DNA from: Ruminobacter sp.
Lineage (GTDB): Bacteria > Pseudomonadota > Gammaproteobacteria > Enterobacterales > Succinivibrionaceae
DNA length: 35,426 nt
Assembly (NCBI GenBank): GCA_017940385.1
Contig: JAGAYS010000011.1
Coordinates: forward strand, 1 to 35,426
Direction: 5' to 3'
The number at the start of each line of letters is the position of its first letter. Within the stretch, counting starts at the first letter, position 1. The position numbers and the translations under genes were made by a program. Under the pieces are notes generated by a model that ran no database searches, had not been told where the DNA came from, and saw nothing but the letters and a program-made list of their open reading frames with translations. Shown one piece after another: positions 2,389 through 11,072 of the stretch.

Positions 2389-3192
2389 ATGGCCAGTAAC
2401 ATTATCATAAAAACCCCTGAGCAGATTGAAAAACTCAGGGTTGCAGGAAAAATCGCCGCCGAAGTTCTGGAAATGATTGAGCCTCATGTTCAGGCCGGAA
2501 TCACCACCGAGGAACTGGATGACATAATGCTCAGATTCATAGAAGACGACAAACAGTCGATTTCAGCATGTCTGGGATACCACGGTTATCCAAAGTGCAC
2601 CTGCATCTCAGTTAATGAAGTTGTGTGCCACGGCATTCCGGGAAAACACAAGCTTCACAACGGCGACATCGTAAACATTGACGTAACCGTAATCAAGGAC
2701 GGCTTTCACGGAGATACCAGCAAAATGTTTATCGTAGGCCAGACCTCCCCAAGAAATCATCAGTTGGTTAAAGTTACCCAGAACTGCCTCTATGAGGCCA
2801 TCCGTGCCATGGGTCCGGGAAAGAATCTGACTGAAGTAGGCAGGGTTATCGAAGGCATTGCCAAAAAAGAAGGATTTTCCATCGTCAGGGACTACTGCGG
2901 TCACGGTATCGGCGAAGGATTCCATGAAGAACCTCAGGTAGTTCATTACTATCCTAATCCGTACAGCGTAATTCTCAAGCCGGGAATGGTATTTACCATT
3001 GAGCCAATGTTAAATGCCGGAACATGGAGAGTTAAGGTTAACCGCAAGGACGGGTGGACCGTAACAACAGCCGACAAACAACCGTCAGCCCAGTTCGAAC
3101 ACACCATAGTGATAACCGAGACCGGATGCGAAGTACTGACATTGCGCCAGGAAGAGGAAGAAACTCTGGGACGCTATATAACGGCAAAATAA
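2389..3192 (+). CDS. map: Methionine aminopeptidase, type I
   Basis: The enzyme removes the initiator methionine from nascent proteins with a small second residue and uses two metal ions in the cytoplasm. The 267-residue product carries the five metal ligands in order: Asp in NIDVTV, Asp in GDTSKMF, His in CGHGIGEGFHEEP, Glu in TIEPM and Glu in QFEHT. The substrate-side His is in YHGYP. The length equals the usual bacterial type I enzyme (264 in E. coli), with no N-terminal zinc-finger extension. The ribosome site is weak (TAAG). The gene is divergent from rpsB and next to glnD, as in E. coli, but here glnD converges on it instead of following it. Confidence 0.97.
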   Translation: MASNIIIKTPEQIEKLRVAGKIAAEVLEMIEPHVQAGITTEELDDIMLRFIEDDKQSISACLGYHGYPKCTCISVNEVVCHGIPGKHKLHNGDIVNIDVTVIKDGFHGDTSKMFIVGQTSPRNHQLVKVTQNCLYEAIRAMGPGKNLTEVGRVIEGIAKKEGFSIVRDYCGHGIGEGFHEEPQVVHYYPNPYSVILKPGMVFTIEPMLNAGTWRVKVNRKDGWTVTTADKQPSAQFEHTIVITETGCEVLTLRQEEEETLGRYITAK

Positions 3193-3218
3193 CCATTCCG
3201 TAAATCTCAAATAAGCAA

Positions 3219-3263
3219 AGAAGCCGTAAAACACCATACTCAATGTGTTTTACGGCTTCTTTT
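3219..3263 (+). terminator. Intrinsic terminator of map
   Basis: A 16-bp perfect stem (3219-3234 with 3245-3260) with a 10-nt loop is followed by TTT. It lies 26 bp after the map stop and between the convergent map and glnD genes, so it may also stop glnD transcripts, though the T-run is poorer on that side. Confidence 0.85.
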
Positions 3264-3296
3264 ATCGTTACGTCATGTAACGGTAACGCCCAGCAA

Positions 3297-5912
3297 TTAA
3301 CCGCTCTGTGAATCTAGACGCAATACCAGCTGCTCCCTGAGTGACTCGCGGCATTCGGCAGATATGGCCTTCCCGTTCTTATCCGTCACGGAAAAGAAGT
3401 CATCAGCCCTCTCGCCGGTTGTGGTAATTTTGGCCGCATGGATTATCAGCTCATTCTCGCTGAATACCTGGGCAATTTTCGCCAGAAGTCCCGGAATATC
3501 CAGTGTGGTGATCTCAAATGAGGTCACGGCAGCGTTACCGTCATCGAGGAAGGTTATCGTCGTCGGGTGTCTGAACTGTTTCAGCTTCTGCGGCATCGGT
3601 TTAATCCTGGAAGGAATGAATTCCTCTGCGGCGAGTGCAGTGGACAGGGCCTTTCTGATGGCCGGTATTCTGTCAAAATCAATCTGACTGTCATTGTTAT
3701 CCACAAATGTGAAGGTATCCAGGGCATAATTATTGCCGGTATTTGAAATAATGGAGGCCAGTACGTTAAGATTTTTTTCCGCCAGTACCCCGGTTACCCT
3801 GGCAAACAGGCCGTTACTGTTTTTTGCGTACACAAAAAGCTCCGTACCGTTTGTCGACCTGTTCTGACCGAACAGAATCAGTGGACTGTCATCACCGGAA
3901 TGGTTAATGATATTCTGCGTATGCCAGGCAATCTGCTCAGGCTGATATCTTATAAAATATTCTGCCCCGAGATTAGTCCATATTTTGAATATGTCCAAAG
4001 GATTGTTACCCATTGCCGTGAGAATCTCCATTGCTCTTTTCTGATTCTCTCTTACATGAAGATTCAAATCAGGAGGATTCTCCAACCCTTTGCGAAGGGC
4101 ATCCCTGGTAGCAAAATACAGGGTTCTCAGCAGCGTATCCTTATAGCTGTTCCATTCCGTATCATTCGTTCCGCATATGTCTGCCACGGTAAGACAGTAA
4201 AGATAGTTAAGAAGATTCTCGTCACCTACGCGTCTTGCAAACTCAGCAACGACCTCCGGTGATGAAATATCTCTTCTCTGGGCAACAATTGACATGTAAA
4301 GATGATTACGCACAACCCAGGCAACCAGCTTGCTTTCGTAGCGGTTATATCCGTGAAGCTGACAGAAATAGAGAGCCTCGGGAGCTCCAAGTTCGGCGTG
4401 ATGCCCGCCCTGCCCCTTAGCTATGTCATGGAACAGAGCCGCAATAAACAGTAGTTCAGGCATGGTCAGATGGCTGTATATCTGACGGAAGAGGCTGAAT
4501 TCGGAATTTCTCTCGTGAGTAAATCTGTAAATATTCCTCAGTACCCTCATGGTATGCTCATCCACTGTGTAGGCATGAAACATGTCGAACTGCATGAGCC
4601 CCACTATCTTATCCCAATGAGGCATGTACAGTGACAGAATATGATGCTTGTGCATTATCGGCAGGGCCACTACGAGAGCCCTCGGCTGTCTGATTATTTT
4701 TTTAAAGGTTTCCCTGCACTCCTGCCTTTCATACAGATAATAGTTTATGCTTCGTCTGGCATTCCTTAGGTATCTTATGCAGTTTACGTGAATCCCCGTC
4801 AGCTCCTCCCTTTCCGTCAGAATAAGAAAAAGCTCGAGAATAATCTGAGGTCTGGTTACAAATATCTTTGGATCTATTACATCGATTAGGTTATCGCGGA
4901 AAAGAAAATACTGGTTAAAGATTTTCCCTTCAATCACTTTTTCCGGAAAGATCTTTTCATACATGAGCTGCATGGCAATTTCATTGAGCTCAACAACTCT
5001 GTGAAGGGTCTGGTAGAATCTTTTCATAAGAGTTTCAACCGGCGTGTTTCCATCCCCGGTGTAGCCAAGGTATGTTGCAACCTTCTGCTGCCTGTCAAAA
5101 GTAAGTCTGTTATCAGGCTTGTTGATTGACAGATGAAGAGCAAATCTTATTCTCCACAGAAAATCCTGACATTCCTTTAACTCCAGATATTCCATGCGTG
5201 TCAGAACACCGTTTGTATAAAGTTCCCTCAGTCCCGTGATGCCGAACCCCTTGTGAGCTATCCAAAGAATATTCTGAATATCCCTGAGTCCTCCCGGATT
5301 ATTCTTCAGATCCGGTTCAAGTTTATATATTGTGTCGTTGTGAGAAGAATGTCTGGCATTCTGCTCGGCCATTTTTGCCCTGTAGAATTCACGAATAGGC
5401 CAGAACATGTCGGACTCAACCCGTTCCTTAAACAGTCCGTAGGTTTCCTCGGATCCCGCAAGAAAACGTGATTCCAGATAATTGGTGGCAATAGTTACAT
5501 CCTTTGCCCCTTCCTCAAAGCACTCCTCTAGAGTACGGACGGACTGACCGATGTCAAGCCGCAAATCCCAGAGAAGGCTGGTAAACTCTGATATTCTTTC
5601 ATTAAGCTCGGCAGGTATGGGAAATCTGCTGATAAGAAGGATGTCTATATCGGAATGAGGCTGTAAATCAGCCCGTCCGTACCCTCCGACGGCAACCAGA
5701 CAGAGACTGCTGAATCGTTCGAAACCGAACTGACGGAAAAGTCTTCGCATAAGTTCATCAATAAATGAGGATCTGTTAAGAACCAGCTCATTAACGGTAA
5801 CACCGGCAAAGAAGGCTTCCTTCATGTCCTCAAACTGACGGGTGATGGCTTCACGCCCGTTCTGCATGTTTATTTCAGTTTCCTGCCAAAAACCGGTATT
5901 ACCGTCGTTCAT
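3297..5912 (-). CDS. glnD: PII uridylyltransferase / uridylyl-removing enzyme
   Basis: GlnD is the bifunctional nitrogen sensor. It uridylylates PII proteins when glutamine is low and removes UMP when glutamine is high, thereby steering glutamine synthetase and NtrBC. The 871-residue product has a nucleotidyltransferase core near residues 76-90 (GGYGRADLQPHSDIDIL, with the GG and the DxD metal-binding pair). An HD domain follows in the middle (FHDIAKGQGGHH), and two C-terminal ACT domains occupy the last 190 residues (one near VYAKNSNGLFARVTGVLAEK, one near LDIPGLLAKIAQVFSENEL). These are all the expected domains at full length (890 in E. coli). An AGGAT ribosome site precedes the ATG. It stands alone on the minus strand, convergent with map. 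Confidence 0.97.
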   Translation of the reverse strand: MNDGNTGFWQETEINMQNGREAITRQFEDMKEAFFAGVTVNELVLNRSSFIDELMRRLFRQFGFERFSSLCLVAVGGYGRADLQPHSDIDILLISRFPIPAELNERISEFTSLLWDLRLDIGQSVRTLEECFEEGAKDVTIATNYLESRFLAGSEETYGLFKERVESDMFWPIREFYRAKMAEQNARHSSHNDTIYKLEPDLKNNPGGLRDIQNILWIAHKGFGITGLRELYTNGVLTRMEYLELKECQDFLWRIRFALHLSINKPDNRLTFDRQQKVATYLGYTGDGNTPVETLMKRFYQTLHRVVELNEIAMQLMYEKIFPEKVIEGKIFNQYFLFRDNLIDVIDPKIFVTRPQIILELFLILTEREELTGIHVNCIRYLRNARRSINYYLYERQECRETFKKIIRQPRALVVALPIMHKHHILSLYMPHWDKIVGLMQFDMFHAYTVDEHTMRVLRNIYRFTHERNSEFSLFRQIYSHLTMPELLFIAALFHDIAKGQGGHHAELGAPEALYFCQLHGYNRYESKLVAWVVRNHLYMSIVAQRRDISSPEVVAEFARRVGDENLLNYLYCLTVADICGTNDTEWNSYKDTLLRTLYFATRDALRKGLENPPDLNLHVRENQKRAMEILTAMGNNPLDIFKIWTNLGAEYFIRYQPEQIAWHTQNIINHSGDDSPLILFGQNRSTNGTELFVYAKNSNGLFARVTGVLAEKNLNVLASIISNTGNNYALDTFTFVDNNDSQIDFDRIPAIRKALSTALAAEEFIPSRIKPMPQKLKQFRHPTTITFLDDGNAAVTSFEITTLDIPGLLAKIAQVFSENELIIHAAKITTTGERADDFFSVTDKNGKAISAECRESLREQLVLRLDSQSG

Positions 5913-6602
5913 AATTCAAATCCTGTTCACCACTGATTATTGTTTTTCCGGTCTTAAGCGAAAATGCACTCATATCCAGCCCGGATTCATTAATATATTG
6001 TTATCTCTACAAAATTCATGCCTGTTCAGAGGCTGTAACACAGCCGGATCAACTTCAGACATCCGCATATGACGAAACATTAGATATGAAAATTGTATAC
6101 CAATTTTTAAATATTACTCACGTACACGGCACAAATCTCCGCAAGAAATTAATCAAGCTCATAAAAACACGGGGGCCACTAAACTCCGGAAATTTTTAAA
6201 GCTTAAAGTCCCTCCTCTCAGCACGGGGAAACCAGACGGCATAATTAATAAAATTAAAGTGGTCATGTTATCACTGCGGGTACCGGAATGAAGAGTATTT
6301 CTTCACACAGGTTAAATGCCGTCATCACTCAATCTCCGTACAATTTCTGAAAGTACAGTAAGGAACAGTTAACACTCCTGAAATATTCTTCTTAAAAAAA
6401 TTGTTTTATTGTATGCACAACACATATGTAAATCCTTCAATCTGATATTATCAGTACATATTGGCGAACGGCAGAACGGTTTTATCTTTTTCAAAGTTTT
6501 ACACCAGAAATTATCCTGACCGACACAGCCTCACAGATATTTCTGACAAAACGGACTGCCAGTTTTTACGTCTTTCACCGAATGACCTGAGAGGTATCAG
6601 TC
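5913..6602. other. AT-rich gap between glnD and the subtilase unit
   Basis: This 690-bp gap separates two genes that diverge. I see no protein-coding frame with a ribosome site. The glnD leader side has a perfect small hairpin, GGCTGT/ACAGCC at 6031-6045. The right part should hold the promoter of the 6603 gene, and a TATTAT box at 6446-6451 is one candidate without a clear -35 box. Nothing else is supported. Confidence 0.5.
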
Positions 6603-7115
6603 TTGAATAACAGAATTATTTTTTCAGCAGTACTGGTCATATTTTTCTCATTCACGCTTATTTCCGCATCCCATGCGGAAGACAGTGTTATCAGAAATGG
6701 CGGCACGGTTATTTATACCGACGGTTTTAAAGTGGTTTCCCAGTCATCCGCCACTCACCGGATAACTGCAGATGCATCCGGAGATCCTCGGTCTGAATTT
6801 CCTTCTCTGCTCGGTACACTCGGGAAAAAGAAAGTAATAACCGGAAACAGGGAAAAGGGACACATAGCCTACGTCACCACAGCCACAGGACGAAGCTATA
6901 TCATCAGGGATGAGCTCATAGTCACCTGTGTCAGAAGCAGTCCTGACTGTCTTAACGATATGGCCGGCGCTGAAAAATTCTCCAAAAGATATTACAGAGT
7001 AAAAACAGACAGTTACGCAGAATGGCTCAAACTAAGGGAATCTCTTGAAAACCGACCGGATGTCTTCAGGGTATCTCCGACAATCGACTACGGCAACAGA
7101 GTGAAATTGCAGTAA
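6603..7115 (+). CDS. Secreted stand-alone subtilase prodomain-like protein
   Basis: The 170-residue product starts at a TTG placed 8 bp after a good GAGAGG site. Residues 1-25 form a signal peptide ending in SASHA, so the mature protein is periplasmic or exported. Residues 29-58 match in pattern the mature N-terminus of the protease encoded next (V-x-R-N-G motif, then S-x-x-A and I-T-x-D). The C-terminal half (about 97-165) resembles inhibitor I9-type propeptides of bacterial subtilases: a DELIV strand, then YYRVK, a helix with E-x-L-x-x-x-P-x-V, and a final strand ending in P-T-I-D-Y. Two cysteines (109, 116) could form a disulfide. It ends 13 bp before the protease start, so the two are probably cotranscribed. 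I infer an intramolecular-chaperone or inhibitor role delivered in trans. The fold match is by eye and not verified. Confidence 0.75.
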   Translation: MNNRIIFSAVLVIFFSFTLISASHAEDSVIRNGGTVIYTDGFKVVSQSSATHRITADASGDPRSEFPSLLGTLGKKKVITGNREKGHIAYVTTATGRSYIIRDELIVTCVRSSPDCLNDMAGAEKFSKRYYRVKTDSYAEWLKLRESLENRPDVFRVSPTIDYGNRVKLQ

Positions 7116-7128
7116 GGAAACAGTTTAT

Positions 7129-9396
7129 ATGAAATCCATCAAAATAAACAAATTAACCGTGACTGTGGCAACCGCGGTTGTTTCATCTCTCATTGTCTCC
7201 TGCGGCGACCACAATAAAGGCGATACTCCGGAGGAGGGTATTGTGGTGCGGAACGGGGATCTGATTAGCGGAAAGCCTTATGAAGTCAGGTCACCTGGAG
7301 CCTCGAACATAACTTCTGATATCGGTACAGTATCAAAAATCAATCCGGTGACCGGAGAGAAAGGGAAAGATGACATCTGGTTCTTTACCATACCTGAAGA
7401 ATTCTACACCTCATACAAAGCAACCTATGAACAGTTGGCAGGTATCCCTGTCGTATTCAGTGTCACGAACAGTAAGGGAGAAACCAGAGATTATAAAATT
7501 GACATCTCCGGAGGAGACACACTTCTTCCGGACATGTGGCACCTTTACAACATCGGGCAGAATCCGTTCGACGTGGACATAGCACCTACTGCCGGTGTTG
7601 ACCTGAATGTCATTCCGGCATGGAGAAAAGTAATTACCACCAATACCGGGAAAACCCTGGTGGACGGCAGCGGTGTAAAGATTGCAGTAATTGACACTCT
7701 CGTGGACTTTCTGAATCATGATCTTAAAGAAAGAGAATACACACCGGAGGATGCAGATCCTAAATTTATTAATATCAAGTTTAAGGATGACTGGATGAAG
7801 AATATCAATATTCTTCATCATGGAACATCTGTTGCCGGAATTATCGGTTCTACAGGAATGAACAGTGCCGGAGTCCGGGGTATTGCCTTCAAATCCATGA
7901 TTACGGGATTTGCCGTCGGAAAAATAGAAGACTATGGAGATGATGTCATGCCTGATACGCAATATGTGTCAGATTCCATATCATATATTGCCGGACATCC
8001 TGAATACAACGTTGGCAATGCCAGCTTTGGAGAAGACTCTTTTTCCTCATCAGCAAGTGAATATTCTTATTACGACGCATTATATGAAAACAACACCGCA
8101 CTGATCCATGCAGTAGGTAACAGCTACGATTATGACATTGAAGACTATCTTGAAGAACATCATCTTCCGGATGATTATGAAGAAAAGCTGGATCTCTGTG
8201 ACATTTATTCAACAGACTGTTTTTTCATGCTGACGGACACCATGTCACGGCACCCGTACGTCATAAATACGGCGGCCATGACAGCATCCGGAAAGAAGTC
8301 AACCTATTCCTCAACCTCCGCCGGTGTTTGGATTTCCGGTTTTGGGGGAGAATACGGCTATATTCCGAGACATTACAGCCAATTATCCGAAGCTGCGCTT
8401 GTTACCGCATTCAGCGGACAGGATAATGTTCCTGCAAATAAATACAGTGATACCGGCACGCCATGGTTAGAATCAGGTCCTGAAGAAAAAAAATATTATA
8501 CGGCCAAAATGAACGGTACCTCATCGGCAGCACCTTCTGTTACCGGAGCTGTCGCCCTGGCATATCAGGTTAAACCGGATATGACCGTGGGACAGCTCAG
8601 ATATATACTGGCAAAAACAGGCAGAAACGACAGTGTTTTCAGCAGTATGAAATACGATCCGATCATCGTGAATGACTCCGAAGGTGATCCGGTGATCACG
8701 GATCCGGGCTGGATTGATAATGCCGCCGGATTCCGTTTCTCCAACTTTTACGGCTTCGGACTGATAGATGCAGCCGCTCTGGTTAATCTCGCTGAATCAT
8801 GTAACGAAGACACGGCCTGCAATCAGCTTATGGACGTTCCTGATCATTACGTATCTACCGGCAGTAATCCGTGTGAACTAACGGCTGAAGGCAGTGTGGT
8901 CTGTACTCTCAGCGGTTTCCGACAGACTGACGCCAAAGATAACACCGGAGGTGAACTTGCAGGCACTGTCGTTATAGATGCTCTCACCTTGGATATTAAG
9001 GGACTTACCTACGCAACCACCCAAACAGCGGAAGACTGCTCCGGGCTGGAAACTCTCCCACAAAGCAACACGGAGGATGACGGCAGTGTACAGAAGTACC
9101 GCGGTAAGGTAATCCTTGCCAACACCAACATGCATATGACAGTCAACTCCCCTGCAGGAACAACAGGCGTTGTCAAGCCGCTCTATGCCATCTGGGATCT
9201 TAACTATGACATTGATGACACGCTGTACAGTTCTGAACCTGAAAGAGAAGCAAACATTCCAGTTTCACTTCTCTATCGTGAAGAGCTGAAACCAGGAGAC
9301 GCCATTACATTCACCTTTAAAAGTCAGTGTGCCATAAATATTGACATGCTGAACAGTTCAATTAAAGCAAATGTCTACGCCTATCCGAAACTCTGA
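7129..9396 (+). CDS. Kexin-like S8 subtilase, outer-membrane lipoprotein
   Basis: The 755-residue protein has a lipobox, IVSC, with the lipidated Cys at 25 followed by Gly. There is no Asp at +2, so outer-membrane sorting is expected. The serine-protease triad is intact: Asp189 in KIAVIDT, His231 in HHGTSVAGI and Ser465 in NGTSSAAPS, with oxyanion Asn331 in HAVGNS. The lead-in MWHLYNIGQ and DLNVIPAW (about 136-165) is typical of subtilases related to proprotein convertases. Residues 575-755 form a beta-rich C-terminal region with an NSPAGTTG motif that resembles the P domain of kexins, a weaker call. No I9-type propeptide is visible between residues 26 and 130. That stretch has a V-x-R-N-G motif shared with the upstream protein and a small beta-rich segment. 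It follows the upstream gene by 13 bp with an AAGGA site. Substrates are unknown. Confidence 0.9.
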   Translation: MKSIKINKLTVTVATAVVSSLIVSCGDHNKGDTPEEGIVVRNGDLISGKPYEVRSPGASNITSDIGTVSKINPVTGEKGKDDIWFFTIPEEFYTSYKATYEQLAGIPVVFSVTNSKGETRDYKIDISGGDTLLPDMWHLYNIGQNPFDVDIAPTAGVDLNVIPAWRKVITTNTGKTLVDGSGVKIAVIDTLVDFLNHDLKEREYTPEDADPKFINIKFKDDWMKNINILHHGTSVAGIIGSTGMNSAGVRGIAFKSMITGFAVGKIEDYGDDVMPDTQYVSDSISYIAGHPEYNVGNASFGEDSFSSSASEYSYYDALYENNTALIHAVGNSYDYDIEDYLEEHHLPDDYEEKLDLCDIYSTDCFFMLTDTMSRHPYVINTAAMTASGKKSTYSSTSAGVWISGFGGEYGYIPRHYSQLSEAALVTAFSGQDNVPANKYSDTGTPWLESGPEEKKYYTAKMNGTSSAAPSVTGAVALAYQVKPDMTVGQLRYILAKTGRNDSVFSSMKYDPIIVNDSEGDPVITDPGWIDNAAGFRFSNFYGFGLIDAAALVNLAESCNEDTACNQLMDVPDHYVSTGSNPCELTAEGSVVCTLSGFRQTDAKDNTGGELAGTVVIDALTLDIKGLTYATTQTAEDCSGLETLPQSNTEDDGSVQKYRGKVILANTNMHMTVNSPAGTTGVVKPLYAIWDLNYDIDDTLYSSEPEREANIPVSLLYREELKPGDAITFTFKSQCAINIDMLNSSIKANVYAYPKL

Positions 9397-9779: not shown

Positions 9780-9813
9780 AAAAAGCCTCCGCTTTTGGAA
9801 GCGAAGGCTTTTT
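9780..9813 (-). terminator. Intrinsic terminator of the nqr operon
   Basis: AAAAAGCCT (9780-9788) pairs with AGGCTTTTT (9805-9813), and the stem continues for five more pairs after one mismatch to a TTGG loop. The minus-strand T-run marks the end of nqrF, 33 bp past its stop codon. It is symmetrical enough to work in both directions. Confidence 0.88.
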
Positions 9814-9845: not shown

Positions 9846-11072
9846 TTAACCGCCGAAGTTATCCAGAAGGATGTTTTCGTCTTCAACGCCGAGGCTGTGG
9901 AGCATGTCAATGGTTGACTTGGTCATCATTGGAGGACCGCACATGTAGAATTCACAGTCTTCAGGAGCCTTATGATTCTTAAGGTAGTTTTCATAAAGAA
10001 CATTGTGAATAAATCCAGTGTAACCGGTCCAGTTGTCCTCAGGCTGTGCATCACTTAAGGCTATATGCCATGTGAAGTTAGGATGTTCCTTAGCCAGCTG
10101 ATCAAATTCTTCCTGATAGAATACTTCCTTAAGTGAACGTGCACCGTACCAGAAGCTGATCTTACGGTTAGTCTTGATTCTCTTAAGCTGGTCAAAGATA
10201 TGTGAACGCATTGGAGCCATACCTGCACCACCGCCCACGAATACCATTTCAGCATCAGTTTCCTTGGCAAAGAATTCGCCGAACGGACCGGAAATGGTTA
10301 CCTTGTCACCCGGCTTTAAAGACCAGATGTATGAAGACATCTGTCCAGGAGGAAGGGTAAGATCACGAAGAGGAGGGGTAGCAATTCTCACATTCAGCAT
10401 GATAAGACCCTTTTCTTCAGGATATGAAGCCATTGAGTATGCACGCAGAATGTGGGTATCAACCTTGGAAACCAGATCACGAAGCTTGAACTTATCCCAG
10501 TCACTGAGATACTTTTCAGGAATATCAAAATCACGGTAGTTTACGGTATGAGGCTCAGCTTCAATCTGAATGTAACCGCCCGCTCTGAAAGGCACTTCCT
10601 CACCTTCAGGAATCTGAAGACGGAGTTCCTTAATGAAGGTGGCCACATTGTTATTGGAAATAACGGTACAGGTCCACTTCTTAACACCGAAAACTGAAGC
10701 AGGAAGTTCAATTTCCATATCCTGACGAACACCGACCTGACATGCAAGTCTCCAGCCTTCGCGAACCTCACGCTTGGTCAGATGACCGAGTTCGGTAGGA
10801 AGAACATCACCGCCGCCCTTGGTAACCTTACAACGGCACTGACCGCAGGCACCGCCGCCGCCACATGCTGATGGCACGAAAATTCCCTGACTGGCAAGAG
10901 CCGTTAACAGCTTGTCACCTGCAGGAACCTTTATTGCCTTTTCAGGATCGCCATTAATACCGATGGTTACATCACCGCTGTTTACCATGAAGTGCTTGGC
11001 AACCAGAATAGCCAGTACCAGACCCAACACGATAAGGATAAATAAACCAACACCATATAATACGGTTATCAT
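9846..11072 (-). CDS. nqrF: Na+-translocating NADH:quinone oxidoreductase subunit F
   Basis: NqrF is the NADH-oxidising entry subunit and passes electrons through FAD and a 2Fe-2S cluster. The 408-residue product has one N-terminal membrane helix (about 4-25). A plant-type ferredoxin domain follows with Cys70, Cys76, Cys79 and Cys111 ([12 protein letters not shown] motif). Next come a FAD site (RAYSMAS) and an NADH site ([12 protein letters not shown], then CGPPMM near the end), and the protein ends in DNFGG, the usual C-terminus. The size equals that of other NqrF proteins (about 408). It is the last gene of nqrABCDEF and is followed by a terminator. The neighbours nqrM and apbE, often found after nqrF in vibrios, are not here. 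Confidence 0.98.

Follow-up and report, generated by a model that had tools for sequence, protein, structure and literature searches.

A subtilase lipoprotein of Ruminobacter sp. and its proposed ORF2-type folding partner, encoded directly upstream

The DNA analysed here is a 35,426-nt stretch of Ruminobacter sp. contig JAGAYS010000011.1 (the window, whose numbering is used throughout; G000 denotes its own genome), and the subject is a pair of adjacent genes proposed to encode a protease and its external folding partner. As an earlier sequence-only reading had reported, two plus-strand open reading frames (ORFs) lie 13 bp apart, at 6603-7115 and 7129-9396. The first begins with TTG and encodes a secreted protein of 170 amino acids (aa), referred to below as the partner and proposed to be an external chaperone/inhibitor; the second encodes a subtilase (S8) of 755 aa with a lipoprotein signal. 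A candidate ribosome-binding site (RBS) for the partner gene, GAGAGG at 6589..6594 on the same strand, ends 8 nt before the TTG, and the signal-peptide region covers partner residues 1-26 (6603..6680), with cleavage after ...SHA placed by eye. The candidate RBS of the protease gene, AAGGA (7114..7118, plus strand), overlaps the partner stop codon and ends 10 nt before the protease ATG, and because of this overlap the two genes fit a translationally coupled operon. Opposite-strand genes flank the pair, glnD-like at 3297-5912 and nqrF-like at 9846-11072 (both named by eye), and a terminator-like stem-loop (9780..9813) stands between the two-gene unit and the convergent nqrF-like gene.

For the protease, PF00082 was matched over residues 180-544 (7666..8760) with E 4.8e-26, and Asp189, His231, Asn331, and Ser465 of this catalytic domain are invariant in a 35-member alignment. 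The lipobox LIVSC (7189..7203) places the expected lipidated residue at Cys25, which is conserved in at least 90% of the same alignment; a lipobox-like motif was found in 40 of the 52 long family proteases that are not cut at an end. The nearest solved structure is that of the Aeromonas sobria protease ASP (3hjr, E 4.7e-26; 3wqb, E 1.2e-25), with kexin reaching only 2.6e-10. According to the available part of the 2017 account of that system, nascent ASP becomes active only with a second protein, ORF2, whose C-terminal Lys lies at the catalytic centre, and ORF2 inhibits ASP with a half-maximal inhibitory concentration (IC50) of 84 nM (PMC5638518). The C-terminal region of the window protease (residues 560-755, 8806..9393) gave no match to the kexin-type P domain PF01483, which 7 of 35 relatives do match.

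Between lipobox and catalytic domain lies an N-terminal domain, residues 36-133 (7234..7527). When a 30-member alignment of this domain was compared with the partner, ORF2, and bridge profiles described below and with I9, P values of 0.42 to 0.66 indicated no relation; the best of five profiles was that of cadherin-like repeats, a weak match (P 0.0024, probability 12%), and in one relative (L123) clear Big_9/cadherin repeats occupy the position of this domain. Pfam gave no I9 match in the window protease, and I9 (PF05922) was matched in 0 of the 35 Succinivibrionaceae genomes searched, with 7 of 24 other genomes positive. By sequence comparison, the window protease is without a recognisable cis propeptide. 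The intact Asp/His/Ser triad, the lipobox, and the lack of a visible propeptide after Cys25 had all been claimed from the window alone, and each was borne out, the last at the level of sequence. A partner-like cis prodomain fused to the protease was considered and rejected: hidden Markov models (HMMs) of the partner and of ORF2 found nothing significant in the protease ORFs examined (E 0.18 or worse). The partner and ORF2 HMM matches listed in 80 named loci fall on small ORFs and on one 416-aa masked partner ORF, never on a protease.

To place the partner, three profiles were used. A1 is the window-type partner profile, made from 45 of 46 candidates with the truncated L106 partner excluded. 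A3 is the ORF2-family profile of 17 sequences, 15 of them adjoining a recognised protease, and was seeded from small secreted genes just downstream of protease relatives in G056, from another family of the order; A6 is a bridge clade of downstream partners from metagenome-assembled bacteria. A3 retrieves ORF2 in the PDB (2mk4, E 2.9e-7; 3wqb_B, E 4e-7), and its members match PF18492 (ORF_2_N) in 16 of 17 cases and the fervidolysin prodomain PF22148 in 4 of 17 (best E 1.1e-4). By hhalign, A1 matches A3 with P 5.7e-6 and a probability of 85% over 68 columns (partner residues 95-163) and A6 with P 2.9e-7 over 82 columns (partner residues 82-166); profile-profile comparison of A3 with A6 gave P 1.7e-8. 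The ORF2-like region so aligned spans partner residues 89-166 (6867..7100). It includes Cys109 and Cys116 (codons within 6927..6950), the sole cysteines of the window partner, which are invariant in 45 homologues and may form a disulfide.

As controls, the reversed A3 profile and 200 column-permuted versions of it were scored, none exceeding 13 against 41 for the real profile. A further control employed 40 families of flanking ORFs, assembled once all matches to the protease, partner, and ORF2 models had been taken out: 38 of these gave P 0.05 or worse, and two gave P 4e-5 and 6.6e-5. In these two exceptions, 19 of the 19 members listed sit at the 3' end of a subtilase gene (Xanthomonas; beta/gammaproteobacterial loci), and because of this position they are most likely further partners, found blind. 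As a separate observation, the Xanthomonas loci L222, L228, L229, L231, L237, L238, and L239 carry tandem subtilase genes, each with a small secreted gene directly 3'; these small genes match the partner profile, and no partner or ORF2 HMM match is listed for them. At Stenotrophomonas loci (L241, L245, L246, L248, L252, L254, and others), a secreted ORF of 192-197 aa ending in ...EETK overlaps the 3' end of the subtilase gene and is possibly another ORF2-type partner.

With I9 proper the partner aligned only weakly (P 0.018, probability 2.5%, 25 columns), and the ORF2 family came no closer (P 0.044); Pfam gave no PF05922 match in the window partner. The sequence-only reading had described partner residues 97-165 as propeptide-like and had set the partner, as a true prodomain, apart from ORF2. 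Of the first claim there remains the register of the last 25 residues, which align with I9 and end in P-x-V, the match as such being weak. The second did not hold, the partner being nearer to ORF2 than to I9 and ORF2 members themselves touching PF22148, and the parallel with ASP/ORF2 drawn in the same reading proved stronger than could be known from the window. Homology of the partner to ORF2 is based on profile-profile comparison together with gene context; on these grounds we take the window partner to be a diverged chaperone/inhibitor of the ORF2 type, in a pair whose genes stand in reverse order and whose protease is apparently lipid-anchored.

To follow the two genes across species, searches were carried out against 59 relatives, 18 of which carry a homologue of the protease (E up to 0.001) and 14 a homologue of the partner (E up to 0.01). 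The partner profile matched 15 of 56 Succinivibrionaceae genomes, representing 6 of 14 genera (E up to 0.001), and among 394 genomes drawn evenly from the order 10 matched, all Succinivibrionaceae. Nine matches lie in the genome of the window itself. Among the fetched family loci, 38 of 55 protease ORFs of at least 500 aa have a same-strand partner within 200 bp, and 45 of 52 partner ORFs sit within 300 bp of a same-strand protease ORF, a pairing that is not due to chance. The partner precedes the protease in 31 of the 38 pairs (median gap 45 bp) and follows it in 7, overlapping it by 4 bp in four of them; in another, L091, the gap is 81 bp, and the downstream partner, the 416-aa ORF with masked letters, may belong to the next protease instead. 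The reversal relative to ASP/ORF2 seen in the window is therefore the commoner order in this family of pairs, which is expanded in the lineage.

Partner and protease have also diverged together. Over 36 pairs, the correlation between their pairwise distances is r 0.94, the highest of 2000 permutations reaching 0.32 (rows L093, L106, L012, and L091 omitted from the set), and within single genomes holding three or four pairs each, r was 0.9 to 1.0 in seven of nine. That the subtilase has a separately encoded partner, as proposed from the window, is thus upheld by pairing and co-divergence alike. On a tree of 76 pairs (a single-gene tree, midpoint-rooted and without support values), gene order changes three times by parsimony and the Succinivibrionaceae upstream pairs cluster together; the other upstream pairs are at two Bdellovibrionota-type loci, L232 and L244.

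Several loci depart from the simple pair. In G000, contig 61 carries two adjacent partner genes with no whole protease gene (L073:2040-2552 and 2719-3315, minus strand), adjoining only a 28%-identical protease scrap that contains a TAG, and contig 23 carries a conserved orphan partner-like gene (L137:3254-3859, minus strand; E about 1e-11) beside an aroA-like gene. This orphan has counterparts on G003 contig 9 and G001 contig 48 and is perhaps a free inhibitor or chaperone. In a paralogous pair of the window's genome (L012:2179-4374), a stop divides the protease into pieces of 153 and 573 aa, and the partner next to it is intact. At L100:1421-6247 and L111:1177-6037, one partner gene is followed by two consecutive protease genes, and a single chaperone may serve two enzymes there.

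A number of results weigh against reading the pair as an ORF2-type system. Searches of Pfam, NCBIfam, and the PDB returned no useful direct match for the window partner, and no direct sequence match to ORF2 or to any solved structure was obtained. PF18492 was not found in the window partner, nor at partner places at E up to 1, nor is it among the families listed for the 45 window-type partners, and ORF2 in the PDB was also missed by the bridge sequences used as a profile, whether by themselves or combined with the partners. The window partner ends in Gln, whereas ORF2 ends in Lys. On the protease side, 17 of the 55 long ORFs lack a partner at a distance of up to 200 bp: a contig end is close by in five, and others are broken, masked, or tandem copies, but L088, L098, L099, L105, L109, L114, and L116 have intact surroundings and no obvious partner-like neighbour, so some protease members may do without a partner. 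Within-genome co-divergence was -0.9 in G021 and 0.48 in G027, with three pairs each.

Weighing these results together, we put at roughly 0.75 the probability that the locus is a two-gene operon for a split protease, in which a divergent ORF2-type partner replaces the propeptide, aids folding, and inhibits through its tail, the protease itself being a lipidated surface enzyme. What the sequences show is the gene pair, how it is distributed and how its members co-diverge, a profile-level link to ORF2, and a protease in which no propeptide can be recognised. On comparative grounds, the idea that the folding partner has a gene of its own is well supported. The chaperone and inhibitor roles are assigned because the partner is homologous to ORF2. 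Both products would enter the periplasm via Sec, where the partner would stand in for the missing propeptide and, by homology with ORF2, template folding of the catalytic domain. Its C-terminal tail (7092..7112, last residue Gln170, where most relatives have Lys or Arg) is proposed, by analogy with ORF2, to occupy the protease active site and to block it like a cleavage product, holding the enzyme inactive until the partner is shed or degraded. The protease, lipidated at Cys25, would have the outer membrane as its probable final place and would there digest dietary protein.

If the protease folded alone, perhaps by means of its N-terminal domain, the partner could instead be a dedicated periplasmic inhibitor, an immunity protein protecting the cell that makes the enzyme. 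Inhibition of mature ASP by ORF2, at the IC50 given above, would suit such a role (the available part of PMC5638518), as would the orphan partners (the contig 61 duo and the contig 23 gene, which recurs in two further genomes of this genus) and the 17 of 55 long proteases lacking a partner within 200 bp. However, homology to ORF2 implies a chaperone role too, nascent ASP requiring ORF2 in that same account, and none of the profiles tried revealed a cis propeptide in the protease; we consider inhibition alone unlikely.

Dentilisin has an accessory subunit, PrcB, and a comparable role for the partner would follow if protease residues 26-133 held an unrecognised cis chaperone. There is indeed a domain of about 100 residues, conserved in the family, between lipobox and catalytic domain, and PF16361 (Peptidase_S8_N) is touched in 4 of 35 relatives (best E 0.012). 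As a hidden propeptide, PF16361 was rejected: the three of its four matches that were located, the best not among them, span only the last 22-24 positions of the PF16361 model, which correspond to the linker before the catalytic domain. Neither the partner nor the ORF2 nor the I9 profile shows any relation to the N-terminal domain itself (P at least 0.42), which is weakly cadherin-like, making a chaperone in cis improbable. More improbable still is that the partner is an unrelated secreted protein merely sharing the operon; its want of a direct database match would allow this, but the pairing, the co-divergence, and the profile link to ORF2 all argue otherwise.

Most partners stop within a few residues of one fixed alignment point, and among 61 non-redundant pairs the last residue is Lys in 14, Gln in 10, Arg in 9, Met in 6, Leu in 6, Asn in 5, His in 4, Glu in 2, Tyr in 2, and Asp, Trp, and Pro in 1 each, Lys and Arg together making up 23; the set leaves aside L093, L106, L012, and L091, as well as six named pairs (one of them absent from it anyway) in which the partner extends beyond the conserved end. 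Protease position 332, which we take to be equivalent to subtilisin residue 156 in the S1 pocket, is Ser in the window protease (8122..8124) and adjoins the oxyanion residue Asn331. Acidic residues at 332 accompany partners ending in Lys or Arg: 16 of 23 pairs, compared with 8 of 37 for the rest. The association is seen inside the family, with 13 of 18 compared with 2 of 13, and also outside it, with 6 of 10 compared with 7 of 34. Against taking the tail as a copy of the P1 residue, 332 ranks third of 149 columns, with 441 and 439 higher, and of 11 tree-independent contrasts only 3 show a joint change, with 0 opposed and 8 unchanged. Because of the higher-ranking columns and the few independent contrasts, the tie of the S1 site to the residue that ends the partner is kept as a lead and not a result, the association being suggestive only.

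A broader proposal, that protease and prodomain are as a rule separate in the ASP-like subtilase clade and that the last partner residue copies the preferred P1 residue, is tentative and in our estimate rather doubtful. Were it true, the genome would reveal protease specificity: cleavage after a neutral residue, Gln for example, would be expected of the window protease, and cleavage after Lys or Arg of most Ruminobacter paralogues. The kexin subfamily S8B cleaves after dibasic sites; Ser332 and the Gln-ended partner argue weakly for a non-basic P1 in the window protease.

With many cognate and non-cognate pairs in one cell, the family offers a natural setting in which to test chaperone specificity and, should the tail mirror P1, to read protease specificity from sequence as well. 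The available part of PMC5911377 describes Ruminobacter amylophilus as a highly proteolytic rumen species, and for this reason these pairs may be its main proteases, each needing two genes for an active form. Our literature search, with most subscription papers outside its reach, found no paper on Ruminobacter or Succinivibrionaceae pairs. ASP was still called an exception to the cis-propeptide rule of subtilases in a 2022 survey (PMC9549277, available part), and the 2017 paper reports, in its available part, such operons for four genera other than Aeromonas (PMC5638518). ORF2-type pairs seem far more widespread than that literature says.

Among known systems, the I9 propeptides of subtilisins (PF05922) share with the partner the expected role and the register of its last 25 residues, but the partner is a separate gene product linked to them by the weak profile match alone and missed by PF05922. 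The N-terminal prodomain of fervidolysin is a cis prodomain, and the 4 of 17 ORF2-family members matching PF22148 tie the ORF2 type to true prodomains; 0 of 45 window-type partners show PF22148 among the families listed for them, 25 of 32. The ORF2-type pairs of Shewanella, Xanthomonas, Stenotrophomonas, Betaproteobacteria, Bdellovibrionota, and Acidobacteria likewise combine a subtilase with a small secreted neighbour, and the bridge clade A6 joins both partner families; these pairs differ in that the partner lies downstream in nearly all those recognised, and upstream in L232 and L244. ASP/ORF2 itself (3hjr, 3wqb, 2mk4; PF18492) offers the closest comparison. As in the window, a subtilase without a recognised propeptide, here the closest solved relative, is accompanied by a small secreted protein from the neighbouring gene, to whose family the window partner is related by profile, and the partner tail may lie in the active site here as that of ORF2 does. 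The ORF2 gene is downstream, whereas the window partner gene is upstream; the window protease has a lipobox and an extra N-terminal domain and no P-domain match; the window partner is missed by PF18492, has two invariant cysteines, and ends in Gln instead of Lys; and many paralogous pairs occur per genome in its family. The system is not a new kind, being a divergent, order-reversed, lipoprotein version of ASP/ORF2 that has expanded in rumen bacteria.

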